A program made the translations under genes and the position numbers. DNA of 21,649 nt from a virus, in the IMG/VR virus record IMGVR_UViG_3300049846_002724, positions 1 to 21,649 of that record. The stretch is one strand, 5' to 3'. Positions 2,354 through 21,140 of the stretch are shown here, piece by piece. Every line of letters begins with the position of its first letter. The first letter of the stretch is position 1. Below the pieces are notes generated by a model. The model did not search any database. It was not told the DNA's origin and saw only the letters and a program-made list of their open reading frames with translations.

Positions 2354-2553
2354 TGACTAAACTTGATTCGTGTCAACATAGATCGCCGGAACCTGTGCAC
2401 TACGGCCCTCCGTGTTGCACGAATCGGCATTTAGGGTACTATTGTACTCTTAGAGGCATTCATGGCTTAACTGAAGAAGTTTGTAATGCCTGCGAGTTTT
2501 ACTTGCAAAAAAAAGAGACCCCATCCGTAAATACCGAAGAAAATGGCAGCTAA
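2353..2553 (+). CDS. Cys-rich small protein, probable zinc-binding module
   Basis: A 66-residue protein with six Cys and several His. Cys7-x-His9 is followed by Cys21-Cys22, Cys31 and Cys44-x2-Cys47. The spacing resembles a small structural zinc module rather than a disulfide protein, since there is no signal peptide and the neighbours are cytoplasmic. The tail after residue 50 is hydrophilic and Glu-rich. The gene starts in a TAATG overlap with the preceding ORF and overlaps the recombinase start by 11 bases, so it is co-translated with the recombinase. It could be a DNA- or RNA-contact accessory factor; no family can be named. Confidence 0.65.
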   Translation: MTKLDSCQHRSPEPVHYGPPCCTNRHLGYYCTLRGIHGLTEEVCNACEFYLQKKETPSVNTEENGS

Positions 2554-3673
2554 AAAGAAAGAAGAACATACCGACTCAAAATCGTTGTTGAAGAACATTC
2601 TTCAACAAAATAAGGACTCACATTATAATTATGTGCAGCCTAAACAGGTTGTTATACCTTCTGGGTCTTTAGCGCTGGACTCTTTAGTAAAGATTAGGAC
2701 TGGCTCGTTCGTAAGAATGTGCGGCAAGGGTAGCGAGCTAGGAAAGACCTCAGAGTGCTTGGTCCTAGCTGAAAATTTCATGAAGACCATGCCAAAGTCT
2801 AAGACTATTTTTGTCAAAGCGGAGGCTAGACTTTCACCAGAAATGCAGGAGCGTTCTGGATTAAAGTACGTTATTGATTCTGACGAATGGGACTATGGAA
2901 CTGTTTTTGTTTTTGGAACAAATGAGTTTGAACTAATAGCTTCTACTTTAGAAACTATGATTCCAAGTATGCATGAAGACGGAGAGCATCTTTGTGTAAT
3001 ATTAGATTCGTTAGACGGAGTTATTCTCAGAAGTGACAAAGAAAAAGATTTGTGGGGTGGAGACGAGAGTGTAAAAGTTGCTGGAGTTCCTCTTTTAACT
3101 AAAATTCTATTTAAACGTTTAGCTCTTCAGGTAGTTCATTATGATGTGTTATTTATAATCACTAGTCAGTACACCTCTGAAATCAAGCTGGACCCCTATG
3201 CTAAGACACCGCCTCGTCAAACTGACGGTTCAGGAGGATTTGCCATCAATCATCAAAGCGACGTTACTCTATCATATCAACCAAGATTTCCGAGTACCGA
3301 TATAATTTTGGAGAAACCAAATGAAAAACCGGACCCAATAAAAAATAAGAAGCTTGGTGTTTATGCTACTGTCGAAGTGCGTAAATCACCAACAGATGTT
3401 ACTGGTCATAGAGTGCGTATTCCAATTAAATCAGATAGAATTGGTTGCGCAATATGGGTTGAAAAGGAATTAGTGGATATGATTGTTGCTTTTGGCCTTG
3501 TGACAAAACGTGGGTCATGGTTTCAATTTTCTGAAGAAATTATTGATTTAGCATTGAAAGATGGAGTAAATATAAAGGCTCAGCATCAGGGCATGAATGC
3601 TTTATACAAATATGTCGAAGACGATGTTAAAGCTTTTGAATGGTTATTGCAGAAAATTAAAGATATTATATGA
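2543..3673 (+). CDS. RecA/UvsX-like strand-exchange recombinase
   Basis: A 376-residue RecA-fold ATPase that would pair homologous DNA during recombination-dependent replication and repair. After a basic N-terminal extension (KKK at 4-6), residues 39-45 (PSGSLAL) match the RecA segment before the core. The P-loop is at 61-69 (GKGSELGKT, compared with GPESSGKT in RecA). The Walker B strand is about 149-157, ending in LDSLDG. The 203-210 segment LFIITSQY occupies the RecA NQ-sensor position, and residues 229-243 (GSGGFAINHQSDVTL) resemble the RecA DNA-binding loop 2 region. The C-terminal part is an extra alpha/beta segment not like bacterial RecA. The first Gly of the P-loop is displaced, which is unusual. 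It overlaps the preceding ORF by 11 bases and the next by four. The family call is strong; the choice between RecA and UvsX subfamily is not settled. Confidence 0.82.
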   Translation: MAAKKKEEHTDSKSLLKNILQQNKDSHYNYVQPKQVVIPSGSLALDSLVKIRTGSFVRMCGKGSELGKTSECLVLAENFMKTMPKSKTIFVKAEARLSPEMQERSGLKYVIDSDEWDYGTVFVFGTNEFELIASTLETMIPSMHEDGEHLCVILDSLDGVILRSDKEKDLWGGDESVKVAGVPLLTKILFKRLALQVVHYDVLFIITSQYTSEIKLDPYAKTPPRQTDGSGGFAINHQSDVTLSYQPRFPSTDIILEKPNEKPDPIKNKKLGVYATVEVRKSPTDVTGHRVRIPIKSDRIGCAIWVEKELVDMIVAFGLVTKRGSWFQFSEEIIDLALKDGVNIKAQHQGMNALYKYVEDDVKAFEWLLQKIKDII

Positions 3674-4080
3674 CATTACTAGACGTTTTTGGAAGGCCAG
3701 TTCGTATAGTATCAAAATCAAGTATTGAGTGGGATAGGCAAGTTTCAAAACCTCAACTTTTGGTTAAAAATTTTCTGTTTCCATTTTGGAAAAGAGACAA
3801 TGTTATCGAAGAGTTTTTAATTCCCGGTACACGATTAAGAATTGATCTTTTCAATTTAACTAAACTTATAGCTATAGAAGTAAATCCAGATGCTTATCAT
3901 GTAAATTACAATAATTTTTTACATAAAAGTCGTACTAACTTTTTAGAAAAAATAAAAGCTGATGAAAAGAAAAGACTGTGGTGTGAAAAAAATAACATAG
4001 AACTAGCTGAATTATACGACGAAGATATTGAAAATTTATCGACTGAATTATTTACAACCAAATACAATATAACATTATGA
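3670..4080 (+). CDS. Small Vsr/DUF559-like endonuclease, copy A
   Basis: A 136-residue protein with the layout of small PD-(D/E)XK nucleases of the Vsr/DUF559 kind: a strand with the first acidic residue (PGTRLRIDL), a hydrophobic turn, then IAIEVN and a downstream aromatic-His (DAYHVN), followed by a long Lys/Glu-rich helix and a final strand (ELAELYDEDI). The usual catalytic Lys is replaced by Asn (E-V-N), so activity is uncertain. It is clearly related to the gene at 4498, sharing W(K/Q)xDxVxEE, TRLR(I/V)D, (V/I)AIE and H-V. It starts in an ATGA overlap with the recombinase gene, suggesting a joint role in recombination or branched-DNA processing. The nuclease fold is inferred from pattern; catalysis is not shown. 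Confidence 0.6.
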   Translation: MTLLDVFGRPVRIVSKSSIEWDRQVSKPQLLVKNFLFPFWKRDNVIEEFLIPGTRLRIDLFNLTKLIAIEVNPDAYHVNYNNFLHKSRTNFLEKIKADEKKRLWCEKNNIELAELYDEDIENLSTELFTTKYNITL

Positions 4081-4351: not shown

Positions 4352-4501
4352 ATGTCATGCTCCATTATTTTTTATAAAAACGGCATACCTGTTGCTATTA
4401 CCATAAAAAAACATGAAAACTCGTTAATTTTTAAAATTAACGAAAATCAATTTTCTATACCTATAGAAAATATAGAAAGAGTTCTTGGTTTTTTTAAATG
4501 A
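4352..4501 (+). CDS. Hypothetical micro-protein, 49 aa
   Basis: A 49-codon ORF lying between the 86-residue gene and nuclease copy B. It begins ATGTCATGC and ends in a TGA that overlaps the next ATG as ATGA, the same junction type used throughout this region, which is the main evidence that it is translated. The product is rich in Ile, Phe and Lys, with strand-like segments (MSCSIIFYKNGIPVAITIKK) and a terminal helix (IENIERVLGFF). No homology is recognisable. It could be a small partner of nuclease B. Confidence 0.55.
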   Translation: MSCSIIFYKNGIPVAITIKKHENSLIFKINENQFSIPIENIERVLGFFK

Positions 4502-4914
4502 AATGGAAGACTTATGCAGGAAAAATAAGACCTCTTTCAGAAAGTAAATTCGCTATCAAATGGGATGAGGATAGCTTGAGTAACTTTCAGTTTAAGATAA
4601 AGCAATTCCTTAAACCTTATTGGCAAAATGATAAGGTAGGAGAAGAAGTTTTATTACCAGATACACGCTTAAGAGTTGACTTTGTCAATTTTACACGTAT
4701 GGTAGCTATAGAATGTAATGGTCTTTTTCATGTTCAGTACACGCCATATTTTCAAAATTCTATTAAAGATTTTAAGTCTCAAGTATTTAGAGATGTATAT
4801 AAAGAACACCTTTTAGAAGAGAATGGTTTTTATGTAGTAGAAATTTACGAAAAGAATTTACCATTAACTGAAAAGTGGATTAGTCAAACCTTTGGTGAAG
4901 GATTCTTATTTTAA
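4498..4914 (+). CDS. Small Vsr/DUF559-like endonuclease, copy B
   Basis: A 138-residue paralogue of the protein at 3670-4080. The shared core is visible: LLPDTRLRVDFVNFT carries the first acidic residue, MVAIECNGLFHVQY carries the Glu and the downstream His, then comes a Lys/Asp-rich helix and the last strand YVVEIYEKNL. The IEcnGxxH pattern is close to the IExDGxxH of DUF559/DUF2726 and Vsr-type nucleases, but the position of the catalytic Asp/Lys is Asn in both copies. Both copies also share an N-terminal segment with an early Trp and a KxFLxPxW motif. ATGA coupling to the 49-residue ORF upstream and a two-base gap to the next gene place it in the recombination/replication operon. The role may be junction or nick processing; this is inferred. 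Confidence 0.6.
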   Translation: MKWKTYAGKIRPLSESKFAIKWDEDSLSNFQFKIKQFLKPYWQNDKVGEEVLLPDTRLRVDFVNFTRMVAIECNGLFHVQYTPYFQNSIKDFKSQVFRDVYKEHLLEENGFYVVEIYEKNLPLTEKWISQTFGEGFLF

Positions 4915-4916
4915 AA

Positions 4917-5462
4917 ATGAATGAACTTATAGAAGATTTTCCAATTTCAAAAAGAGTAAAAACAGCACTGAAAGCAGCTGGGTATATTTGTGCAGATAGT
5001 TTAAGAAATAAGTATGCGGAAGATGTTAAGGATATAGACGGTTTGGGTCAAAAGGGGTGGCTTGAATTGAGGGAGTACCTCTATAATAAATATCGTATTA
5101 CGTTTAAACCAAAACCTAAACCAAAGAAGACAAAAAACTTTTTACAGTCACGACAGCTGGTCGAACATTTCTTTGGTAAGAATGCTAAAATTTTTTGGGG
5201 CAAAGAAATCAAAGTTGCTGACCAATTAATTTCTATTTACGGATTCGAATTATTATCTTCTATACGTTTAAATAAAAAAATTTATTCTCTATCCTATTTT
5301 TTCACTCAAGAAGGGAAGGCGTGTATAAAACAAGCGAGACCAGCTCTGTCGATAGAGACAGCTAAACCTACACAACCTGCGGAAGACACAGGAGAAGCGA
5401 TAGATTTGTTTTCTAACGTAAACATACAGAAGGCTCCAAAGTCGATTAGAGATTTTTTATAG
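4917..5462 (+). CDS. RNAP-alpha-CTD-like helix-hairpin-helix protein, upstream of DnaB helicase
   Basis: A 181-residue two-part protein. Residues 1-59 follow the pattern of the bacterial RNA polymerase alpha-subunit C-terminal domain: IEDFPISKRVKTALKAAG, then a helix, then IDGLGQKGWLELREYL, equivalent to alpha-CTD 'LxLSxRxxNxLKxxxI ... GLGxKSLxEI'. Arg13 sits where the DNA-contacting Arg of alpha-CTD lies. A KPKPKPKK linker (about 64-71) leads to a second helical domain (about 74-140) I do not recognise, then a Thr/Pro/Glu-rich linker containing AIDLF, a weak resemblance to sliding-clamp-binding peptides, and a basic tail ending SIRDFL. It sits one base before the helicase gene, so a helicase-loader or DNA-tethering role is as plausible as a transcriptional one. 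The helix-hairpin-helix fold is well supported; the role is not. Confidence 0.6.
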   Translation: MNELIEDFPISKRVKTALKAAGYICADSLRNKYAEDVKDIDGLGQKGWLELREYLYNKYRITFKPKPKPKKTKNFLQSRQLVEHFFGKNAKIFWGKEIKVADQLISIYGFELLSSIRLNKKIYSLSYFFTQEGKACIKQARPALSIETAKPTQPAEDTGEAIDLFSNVNIQKAPKSIRDFL

Positions 5463-5463
5463 T

Positions 5464-6927
5464 ATGACATATTCTAAACTAAATACGCCACAAGAGCAAG
5501 AGAGGGCTTGCTTGGCTTGTTTTCTACAATATTCAAATAATCTTCCGGATTACAATGGGGTTTTAAAGTCTAATCATTTTGAAAATAAAGTTCATGCAGC
5601 TATTTATACAGCCATGACCGTTGTTTATGCAAACGCTGGGACTATAGATGCTGTGTTAGTTTCTGAAAAGTTAATGGCAATAGGATTAAAACAGTTTGAA
5701 GATCTAAATATTTTTGAATATCTTGAAACATTGTCTCAAATGCTAGTTAAAGAAGAATCTTTGCCTCATTACATATCCAATATTATAAAATATGATTTTG
5801 CCAGAAAAGCAGATAAAGCTTTTGATAATGGTAAAAAAGAAATTAGAGATAGTATAGATAAACCGTTACCTCAGTTAGCTGTTATAATTGAAAATGCTTT
5901 AAAAACAGCTGGCACAGAAAATGTAGCGAATGAAGAAGATCCTATAGATGTATTTTCTGTGATGCCAGATTGGGTTATGAAGTGGGGACAAACTCAGCGT
6001 CCAACATTTCTTAAGGTTCCTTGGCCCGTATTTACTAAGTTGTATGGAGGTCTAAGTTTTGGAGACTTATATGTTATTGCTGCCCCTCCTAAAGTGGGAA
6101 AAAGTACAATTGTAAATTTTTTAGCATATTCTGTAGCTGGAGAATTAGATAATAATTGTAAAGTATTGGTTCTAGATACAGAATTGGAAACGGAAAGAAT
6201 TGTAGCAAGAAATCTAGCCTCCATTTCTAACGTTAATGAGTTTAAAATTAAAAATGGTTTATTTAAAAATAATATTAGCGAAAGCAATCGCGTCGCTTCG
6301 GCATTTAATGTACTTGACAAATATAAAAACCGTGTTTATCATAAATACGTGGCCAATAAATCTATTGATGAAGTTCTTTCTATAGCTCGTCGTTGGCACG
6401 CAAAAAATGTGAAACCGGGCGAAACCTGTTTAATTGTTTACGATTATCTCAAATCAACTCAGGAAAATATCAAAGACGCCTTTGCTGGTTACGAATTGTT
6501 AGGAATGAAAACGGACAAATTAAAAAAGTTAGCTTCAGAACTTCCGTTTACTTCTTGTTTAACAGCTGTACAAACCAATCGAAACAATGAGACGGCCATG
6601 TCAAGTCAGATTGAATGGCATTGTTCCAACATGTATAGACTTGAAAAGAAAACTGCCGACGAAATTTCTGAATTTGGAAAAGAATTTGGCACGCATAAAT
6701 TGGTTGAAGTGAGAGCCCGTGTTCAAGGGGAATTCGCGCAAGGGGCAGACAACTACGTTAAGAAGGTAACTTCAGATGGGGATGTATATGTTACCAATTT
6801 TATCAATTTAAAAATCGACAATTTTAATGTCACTGAATGCGGAAGCTTAGAAGACATTTTCAATTCTACTCTTGGCCAAGTTGATGTTTATAGCAAACAA
6901 AAACAAGGCGAACCAAAATTTTTATGA
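5464..6927 (+). CDS. dnaB: DnaB-type replicative DNA helicase
   Basis: Hexameric 5'-3' helicase that unwinds the fork and recruits primase. The 487-residue protein has the DnaB N-terminal helical domain (begins QEQERACLACFLQ, about 9-110), a linker region to about 165, and a RecA-fold motor. Walker A is at 207-214 (APPKVGKS), the DTELETERIVAR segment (238-249) corresponds to the DnaB SLEM/arginine region, Walker B is at 322-328 (CLIVYDY), and AVQTNR (368-373) is the H3-type sensor. The length is close to bacterial DnaB (about 470). It starts one base after the alpha-CTD-like gene and overlaps primase in an ATGA, so helicase and primase are co-translated, as expected for partners. The extended C-terminus ends QGEPKFL. 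The DnaB family call is strong; phage-specific naming is not possible. Confidence 0.9.
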   Translation: MTYSKLNTPQEQERACLACFLQYSNNLPDYNGVLKSNHFENKVHAAIYTAMTVVYANAGTIDAVLVSEKLMAIGLKQFEDLNIFEYLETLSQMLVKEESLPHYISNIIKYDFARKADKAFDNGKKEIRDSIDKPLPQLAVIIENALKTAGTENVANEEDPIDVFSVMPDWVMKWGQTQRPTFLKVPWPVFTKLYGGLSFGDLYVIAAPPKVGKSTIVNFLAYSVAGELDNNCKVLVLDTELETERIVARNLASISNVNEFKIKNGLFKNNISESNRVASAFNVLDKYKNRVYHKYVANKSIDEVLSIARRWHAKNVKPGETCLIVYDYLKSTQENIKDAFAGYELLGMKTDKLKKLASELPFTSCLTAVQTNRNNETAMSSQIEWHCSNMYRLEKKTADEISEFGKEFGTHKLVEVRARVQGEFAQGADNYVKKVTSDGDVYVTNFINLKIDNFNVTECGSLEDIFNSTLGQVDVYSKQKQGEPKFL

Positions 6928-7826
6928 TCAAAGACATTCTTGAAGATTTAGGTTATAAGCCTCAATCATCAGGCTCTCAGTGGCTACGGATGACGGCTGC
7001 GTATCGAAATGGTACTAGCCTTTCATTAGCTGTTAATAAGGAGACGGGTTGGTTCGAAGACTTTGTTACAGGTCATAATGGCCCTTTGTTCAAATTAGTC
7101 ATGCTTACACTTGGCATCGGAGAACAAGAGGCTCGCAATTATCTTGAAGGCTCATACTTCGCGGCGCAGAAAAATAATGAGGTTCAAGCTGAAAAAATAG
7201 AACAGCAAAAGTTCTTACCCCCTGATTTTTGCGACGACTTACTTCCATCATATTCTTTTTATAAGAAAAGAGGAATAGAAGAATCTGTGCTGAAAGAGTT
7301 TGGTGGCGGGGTTAAAACGTACGGTAAGATGAATAACAGGTTTGTCTTTCCAATATACGATTTTAATAAAAAAATTATAGGGGTAGCGGGACGAGACTTG
7401 TTTCAAAACTCAGTGAGAACTAAGTGGAAAATAATGGGCAGGAAAAACAAGTTTCTGTACCCCCACCATTTGACGAAAGATAATATAGAATCGTCTGGTG
7501 AAGTTATTCTAGTGGAAAGCATAGGGGATGCGCTGGCGCTATACAATGCTGGCATCAAAAATTTCTTAGTCACCTTTGGCCTTAGTATTTCAAAAGACTT
7601 AATATTATATTTAATTCGTTTAAATGTTACCAAAATTATTATAGCGACCAACAATGACGTTGAGAGTAAAGAGAATAGGGGTTTAAGTGCGGCTAATAAT
7701 ATTAAAGCAAAATTACAAAAATTCTTTCAGGCGGATCAGGTAAGAATTGTTCTGCCTTGCAAAAAGGATTTTGGAGAAATGACAAAAGAAGAAATAGCAA
7801 ACTGGAATTTAAGAGCACATGAATAA
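6924..7826 (+). CDS. dnaG: DnaG-type DNA primase lacking the zinc finger
   Basis: Makes RNA primers for lagging-strand synthesis. The 300-residue protein has an N-terminal part that follows the DnaG zinc-binding fold in outline (SLSLAVNKETGWFEDFVTGHNG, then a helix) but contains no Cys there, so it cannot bind zinc in the usual way. Next comes the basic RNA-polymerase subdomain (NRFVFPIYDFNKKIIGVAGRD, about 138-158), then TOPRIM: Glu198 in ILVESIGDALALYNAG, and IIIATNNDVESKENRG at 238-253, where the usual DxD reads N-N-D. It has no C-terminal helicase-interaction domain of bacterial size. Overlap with the helicase (four bases) and the phosphoesterase (eight bases) ties it to the replisome operon. 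The primase assignment is good. Whether it primes alone is unclear given the altered TOPRIM acid. Confidence 0.8.
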   Translation: MIKDILEDLGYKPQSSGSQWLRMTAAYRNGTSLSLAVNKETGWFEDFVTGHNGPLFKLVMLTLGIGEQEARNYLEGSYFAAQKNNEVQAEKIEQQKFLPPDFCDDLLPSYSFYKKRGIEESVLKEFGGGVKTYGKMNNRFVFPIYDFNKKIIGVAGRDLFQNSVRTKWKIMGRKNKFLYPHHLTKDNIESSGEVILVESIGDALALYNAGIKNFLVTFGLSISKDLILYLIRLNVTKIIIATNNDVESKENRGLSAANNIKAKLQKFFQADQVRIVLPCKKDFGEMTKEEIANWNLRAHE

Positions 7827-20124: not shown

Positions 20125-20704
20125 AATCATAACAACATATTGTAATAATCAAAATTTAGAAGATTTAAAAGCTCATATTCCAAAGCTTGGAGTTGATTAC
20201 GTTGTTATTAGTCATCAGCCAATTTTAGGTGAAAAAAATACCGTTGTAAATTACACTCCTTTAGCAGCTCCAGATGAAGCGATTCGAATGGCGGCGGAAT
20301 ATTTAAACTCTTTATCTAAAGATGATTTAAATCAAGAGTTTATCTTTTTAGATTGGGAATCTGTATTTACTTTTTCTTCATTTGAAAGAGACCTTCAATT
20401 GCTTGTTTGTATCAACGATGATTATGATTTATATATAGTCGAAGAACCTATTAGGGCACAAGATTTTAGATTGGCTCCATATATGGAGAATTTGCTAAAA
20501 ATAGCAAACGACTTAAATCTTCCAAACAAAGATAGTTTATTTGAGAAAAATCCATACGTTTTGATACCCCGCTTAATAAAAGGAAATGGGGTAGCCTTAT
20601 TAAAATCTTTTCAAGATTTTCTAAACGTTAGAGGTATTATTCAATCAAATAAGTTTACTGGAGTACTACCAATTTATAATTGCCTATATGGATATAGAAG
20701 ATAA
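20117..20704 (+). CDS. Hypothetical protein, 195 aa
   Basis: Unrecognised. The start MTKIITTYCNNQNLEDLK and GVDYVVISHQP look like a beta-alpha-beta opening of a Rossmann-type fold. Further hydrophobic strands EFIFLDWESVF, LLVCINDDYDLYIVEEP and NPYVLIPRLIKGNG suggest a compact alpha/beta enzyme or glycosyltransferase-A-like domain, but no DxD or nucleotide-binding motif can be assigned with confidence. It overlaps its upstream neighbour by 8 bases and the sigma factor by 17, so all three are translated together. Confidence 0.65.
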   Translation: MTKIITTYCNNQNLEDLKAHIPKLGVDYVVISHQPILGEKNTVVNYTPLAAPDEAIRMAAEYLNSLSKDDLNQEFIFLDWESVFTFSSFERDLQLLVCINDDYDLYIVEEPIRAQDFRLAPYMENLLKIANDLNLPNKDSLFEKNPYVLIPRLIKGNGVALLKSFQDFLNVRGIIQSNKFTGVLPIYNCLYGYRR

Positions 20705-21140
20705 AGTTTTAGAATTCCAAAAAACCGGGGACTCATCTTTAGGAAAGGAAATTTTCAATAGATCGTATGAACTGGCAAATACTATAATTAATTCTAAATA
20801 TACTCAATTTGGATATTACGACGATTTGCTCTCTGAATCTCATGATGCTATTATAGCGGCTGTATACGCTTTTAAAGCTGACGCGAAGGTAAAATTCAAT
20901 ACTTTCTGTTCTGTTTGTATTAATAATCGTATTTTAAATTTCATAAAAAAACAAAAAAGAGCAGAGCAGCTTTTATTGAAAAAACCTCTTGACTTTTATG
21001 AAACTGAATGTAGAGTCGATGCAATAACGGCTCTTTCTACCTTGAGTAGTAGACACAGAGACTCTCTACTACACAATACAGGATCACGCTCGATGAAATT
21101 TAGAGCAAAAAAAGCCTTTTTTAAAAATTTAAATTCATAA
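20688..21140 (+). CDS. Minimal sigma-70-family RNA polymerase sigma factor
   Basis: A 150-residue sigma factor that would direct host RNA polymerase to phage promoters, like the late sigma gp55 of T4. Region 2 is clear: regions 2.1-2.2 in ELANTIINSKY and YYDDLLSESHDAIIAAVYAF (43-62), regions 2.3-2.4 in VKFNTFCSVCINNRILNFIKKQKR (68-91), matching the kFsTYaxxxIrxxIxxxixkxxR pattern. There is no region 3. The end, ALSTLSSRHRDSLLHNTGSRSMKFRAKKAFFKNL (from 115), carries the flanks of region 4 but the first part of its helix-turn-helix appears to be deleted. The ATG at 20688 lies 17 bases inside the preceding ORF. The family is well supported; the timing class of its target promoters is inferred. 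Confidence 0.78.
   Translation: MDIEDKVLEFQKTGDSSLGKEIFNRSYELANTIINSKYTQFGYYDDLLSESHDAIIAAVYAFKADAKVKFNTFCSVCINNRILNFIKKQKRAEQLLLKKPLDFYETECRVDAITALSTLSSRHRDSLLHNTGSRSMKFRAKKAFFKNLNS

Follow-up and report, generated by a model that had tools for sequence, protein, structure and literature searches.

An RNA polymerase alpha-CTD-type domain fused to a recombinase-associated protein and encoded directly before dnaB in uncultured phages

Background

The C-terminal domain of the bacterial RNA polymerase (RNAP) alpha subunit (alpha-CTD, Pfam PF03118) is also found as a building block of small phage proteins such as Mycobacterium phage Marley1013 gp51, Microbacterium phage Mazun gp26 and several BFVD-annotated proteins, and phage use of this module is therefore not new. 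The protein described here shares with RNAP alpha the fold of its CTD, a family-level match (in its relatives) and the DNA-contact Arg, Gly and Lys residues. It differs in that the CTD is fused to another domain, designated X, lacks the alpha N-terminal dimerisation/assembly domain and displays a proline at the position equivalent to E261. Domain X is absent from the other phage proteins mentioned. Among these, Marley1013 gp51 is similar in setting, as its gene also adjoins a helicase gene; however, this neighbour is a ResIII-type (SF2) helicase and not DnaB, and gp51 has its own Cys/His-rich C-terminal part. With an alpha-CTD of 28.2 bits and a gene (L154:2983-3465) overlapping that of the SF2 helicase, it constitutes a separate case of an alpha-CTD by a helicase.

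Phage T4 provides a precedent for UvsY-type mediation and for gp59-type helicase loading at D-loops (PMC3016280). Like UvsY, X would be a small accessory of a UvsX/RecA-like recombinase, a likeness that for X comes from gene linkage alone (PMC3016280). The fusion protein, here called alpha-CTD-X, recalls gp59 in that it sits with the replicative helicase in the fused clade and might couple recombination to replication, but gp59 is unlike it in size and architecture. No similarity to X was detectable with hhalign for either UvsY (probability 0.1 %) or gp59 (0.2 %), each represented by a single sequence, so that both comparisons were of low power.

Gene neighbourhood of alpha-CTD-X

The window, i.e. 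the whole IMG/VR virus record of 21,649 bases considered here, contained the following features:

4917..5462, + strand: alpha-CTD-X fusion protein, 181 aa plus stop (open frame; homologues in at least five lineages; purifying selection in relatives)
4917..5093, + strand: alpha-CTD-type helix-hairpin-helix domain, residues 1-59 (Pfam, PDB profile search, AF2, Foldseek, alignment)
5094..5132, + strand: basic linker of KPKPKPKK type, residues 60-72 (sequence; kept in fused relatives)
5133..5360, + strand: all-helical domain X, residues 73-148 (62-sequence alignment; AF2 helices; free-standing X elsewhere)
5361..5429, + strand: acidic stretch, predicted disordered, residues 149-171 (pLDDT below 50 at 147-168)
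5430..5459, + strand: conserved C-terminal tail KAPKSIRDFL, residues 172-181 (62-sequence alignment; tail statistics)
5464..6927, + strand: DnaB-type replicative helicase (Pfam DnaB and DnaB_C, PHROG_19)
2543..3673, + strand: RecA/UvsX-like recombinase (PHROG_97 UvsX-like, E=3.1e-21; gene order)
4498..4914, + strand: nuclease-like gene directly 5' of alpha-CTD-X (PHROG endonuclease matches; kept in the module)
6924..7826, + strand: primase (TOPRIM), after the helicase (Pfam and PHROG)

The stop codon of alpha-CTD-X runs to 5462 and the first base of the helicase ORF is 5464, leaving the single base between them that the first-pass annotation had reported. The UvsX-like recombinase and two nuclease-like paralogues were found on the 5' side, while the 3' side of the window displayed primase, a phosphoesterase-type exonuclease, a PD-(D/E)XK nuclease, a PHP protein, a 3' exonuclease and a DNA polymerase III alpha protein. 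A module of X, recA, nuclease, dnaB, primase, RecB-like nuclease, PHP, 3' exonuclease and PolIII alpha recurred across phages. Scanning the window against Rfam and for promoters or terminators yielded nothing usable.

The N-terminal domain

The first-pass annotation had read the first 59 residues as an RNAP alpha-CTD, and this was confirmed here. Residues 4-55 of the window protein gave a sole Pfam match, PF03118 (16.3 bits, E=0.008), which for the window copy alone falls below the curated cut-off of 23.8 bits; four full-length relatives, from a set fetched via the helicase and via alpha-CTD-X itself, exceeded it (L005, 25.2 bits; L013, 23.9; L028, 26.9; L109, 31.4). When a profile of six family sequences was run against the PDB, the structures ranked highest were alpha-CTDs (1z3e_B, E=3.8e-4). 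Two AF2 models (6 and 62 sequences) displayed high confidence over residues 1-60 (block pLDDT 85-94), and alpha-CTDs were on top when the AF2 model was submitted to Foldseek (TMt 0.73-0.83, rmsd 1.4-1.7 A), the best-fitting fold being again 1z3e_B (TMt 0.83, rmsd 1.4 A). Foldseek E-values were modest, the best being 7.5e-3, owing to the small size of the domain. Values of dN/dS over the domain ranged from 0 to 0.08 among close relatives, which denotes strong purifying selection. Residues 1-59 are an RNAP alpha-CTD-type helix-hairpin-helix, and chance is ruled out.

A generic helix-hairpin-helix, the alternative against which this assignment was to be checked, was rejected, since L109 matched PF03118 with an E-value of 1.6e-7, whereas HHH_5, the helix-hairpin-helix family ranked next, reached 0.016. 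Judging from the models, a generic domain would nevertheless be a near alternative; the N-terminal domains of RadA and of RAD51 paralogues were also among the weaker Foldseek matches.

Alignment with the E. coli and B. subtilis alpha-CTDs placed window residues R13, G44 and K46 at E. coli R265, G296 and K298, and the DNA-contact positions were retained for the most part, with exceptions. At the equivalents of R265/N268/G296/K298/S299, the window displayed R, T, G, K and G (with T16 and G47 as the departures), L007 and L028 both displayed R, N, G, K and G, and L109 displayed K, N, G, K and S. DNA binding may consequently be altered, given the changes at N268 and S299 in the window and the replacement of R265 by lysine in L109.

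A true alpha-CTD, as opposed to a generic domain (see the L109 values above), would suit a transcription-linked factor that imitates the CTD of RNAP alpha at UP elements or activators and thereby regulates phage or host transcription or couples it to replication. This is nonetheless very improbable: the 181-aa protein contains no alpha N-terminal domain, the CTD alone being matched in Pfam, and those recurring neighbours whose role can be predicted belong to DNA metabolism. Moreover, the position equivalent to E261 was occupied by proline in five out of five fused forms. E261 of the E. coli alpha-CTD is an acidic residue contacting sigma, and proline in its place argues against imitation of RNA polymerase. 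Of the AT-rich origin, UP element and transcription link evoked by the first-pass annotation, none was found in a cursory search.

Domain X and the C-terminal tail

Domain X was characterised by the motif FWGKEIKVAxxL...SLSYFxTxEG in an alignment of 62 sequences, and the window protein displayed the family motifs WxxE[IM]xxAxxL and SLxxFL together with a C-terminal [DE]F[IL] tail. Its AF2 helices spanned residues 75-86, 94-108, 110-114, 125-129 and 131-148 (block pLDDT 85-91 up to residue 140). The tail was highly conserved: Phe180 was invariant in all 62 aligned sequences, and [DE]F[ILFM] was present within the last 22 residues of 71 out of 81 family members, versus 3.0 expected in shuffles.

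X proteins had no confident match in Pfam, PHROG or PDB. As to the fold of X, the PDB sequence search gave no notable match, and the Foldseek matches listed were nearly all to the alpha-CTD part. The X family and its fusion with an alpha-CTD appear to be undescribed in the libraries searched, and no literature report combining alpha-CTD, phage and helicase loader was found.

A sliding-clamp-binding tail was considered on account of QLDLDL in L005-type proteins (residues 160-165), which resembles a hexapeptide binding such clamps, and of the weaker AIDLF in the window (5361-5429); as neither was present in L028 or L109, it was rejected and kept only as a lead. No sliding clamp domain was detected in 20 related contigs, a set that does not include the window record.

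Free-standing X and its linkage to recA

In other phages X is a free-standing protein of ~110-135 aa. A profile search of the fetched loci provided 81 distinct X sequences, of which 71 were free-standing and shorter than 150 aa (a few being cut by contig ends). Fifty-six of these 71 genes were located at -37 to +16 bp of recA, the remaining 15 being at least 0.7 kb away. This first sample had been fetched partly through recA and dnaB, and the search was therefore repeated with X alone. Among the best 80 of 110 confirmed relatives, a RecA/UvsX-like gene was found downstream on the same strand in 80 out of 80 loci, at a distance of -54 to +11 bp in 75 and of 722-826 bp in five; many of these loci belong to related phages, and the 80 are thus not independent events.

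Gene order hence makes X a recombinase-associated protein. The first-pass annotation had called it an unknown domain in a protein that might load the helicase at AT-rich origins. The first half held, in that no confident match to a known family was obtained, whereas the second fits poorly with a family that is tied to recA and not to the helicase (80/80, best 80 of 110). Helicase binding was probably not the ancestral role of X.

The same linkage would accommodate a protein acting with the recombinase only, in which the alpha-CTD adds general DNA affinity in the manner of the RadA/RAD51 N-terminal helix-hairpin-helix and the place before dnaB is without functional significance. The appearance of RadA and RAD51-paralogue folds as weaker matches in the structural search points in this direction too; against it, the position before dnaB was kept across fused lineages only 36-40 % identical to the window protein, and we regard this explanation as quite unlikely.

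The fused clade and the position before dnaB

Alpha-CTD-X was carried by five lineages, namely the window, the L005/L007/L006/L009 and L013 types, L028 and L109. The stop-to-start spacing to dnaB remained between -3 and +5 bp in all of them. The window's clade thereby departs from the rule of the X family, its gene being located directly before dnaB and not before the recA-like gene. No alpha-CTD was found elsewhere in free-X phages (17 records searched).

According to the recombinase tree (84 sequences), rows of the fused clade were grouped on one side of a branch supported at 99/83; the clade as counted includes L101 and L108, both of which end before the position of X, and no full-length recombinase was available from L028 and L109. 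The nearest outgroup was L107, in which an X-like protein with a different N-terminal part precedes recA. In the window's clade, X has acquired the alpha-CTD, and its gene has left the place before recA for the one before dnaB. The N-terminal extension of the L107 protein (L107:6384-6944) was unrelated, which may represent a second N-terminal swap.

No relatives were confirmed among 422 pattern matches in bacterial genomes, and no close relatives were found in GenBank phages by tblastn. A T4-type capsid was not matched in related contigs, in a search that had no positive control.

That every fused lineage keeps the gene immediately 5' of dnaB is what would be expected of a dedicated helicase loader or initiator, whose alpha-CTD recognises AT-rich origin DNA while X and the tail deliver DnaB. 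Alpha-CTD-X moreover fills the slot of another small conserved protein (74 free-X loci) that the fused clade lacks, and the scanned ORFs of the window included no other recognisable helicase loader. Free-standing X, however, was tied to recA and not to dnaB in 80/80 loci (best 80 of 110), a cursory search identified no origin, and similarity to T4 gp59 was lacking in the comparison with one sequence. Such a loader is accordingly possible, but unlikely.

A putative accessory of recombination-coupled replication

Since X is recombinase-associated and was fused and moved to the helicase, a DNA-bound accessory of recombination-coupled replication was favoured over an origin-specific loader; the linkage to a RecA/UvsX-like recombinase similarly favours recombination, or replication coupled to it, over helicase loading at a specific origin. 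On the basis of gene order, conservation and fold, we tentatively propose, at somewhat less than even chances, that alpha-CTD-X is a DNA-binding accessory of a phage recombination-replication module. X would act alongside the recombinase as a mediator-like factor or one that modulates its filament, and its tail could serve as a peptide that docks onto a conserved partner (recombinase, SSB or helicase). The alpha-CTD would bind the minor groove of duplex DNA in a sequence-tolerant way and keep the factor in place at strand-exchange intermediates or forks, the sites at which helicase, primase and polymerase would then be assembled; alpha-CTD-X would perhaps couple recombinase and helicase. By analogy, its job may resemble the hand-off between UvsX, UvsY and gp59 in T4, which does not imply membership of these families. 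Against the accessory function, gene adjacency is an indirect indication, and the move next to dnaB could be neutral shuffling.

A bolder version, in which X forms a new family of recombination mediators in a large group of uncultured phages and the fusion before dnaB hands recombination intermediates to the helicase, thus merging the jobs of UvsY and gp59, is rather unlikely.

The fusion before the helicase, carried by a small group of uncultured phages, is suggestive of a link between recombination and replication. If the accessory function were true, the constant recA linkage would give the previously unnamed X family a testable role, a DNA-binding domain of the transcription machinery would have been reused to place a recombination/replication factor, and there would be a reason for an alpha-CTD to stand before a phage helicase.

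Additional observations

The small protein encoded directly before dnaB in 74 loci of free-X phages (e.g. L040:6654-6935, L081:6634-6933 and L002:4210-4536) displayed a GGY[IL]xFxF-like motif and an acidic tail. Besides the fused clade, several other free-X lineages lacked it.

The two nuclease-like paralogues of the window (3670-4080 and 4498-4914) were similar to each other, ~137 aa long and only weakly matched by PHROG endonucleases; most related phages encoded nuclease-like relatives in the interval from recA to dnaB. A 49-aa ORF at 4352-4501 (+) had a 49-aa counterpart at L005:4638-4787. The protein encoded at 20688-21140 weakly matched sigma-70 region 2 (18.0 bits, under the cut-off) as well as PHROG sigma factors.

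Recombinases of the fused clade (window 2543-3673, L005, L007, L013, L101 and L108) shared the P-loop CGKGSELGKTS, with a lysine where the Walker A motif usually displays Gly or Ala. The same position was occupied by Ala in L107 and by Gly or similar residues in other lineages.
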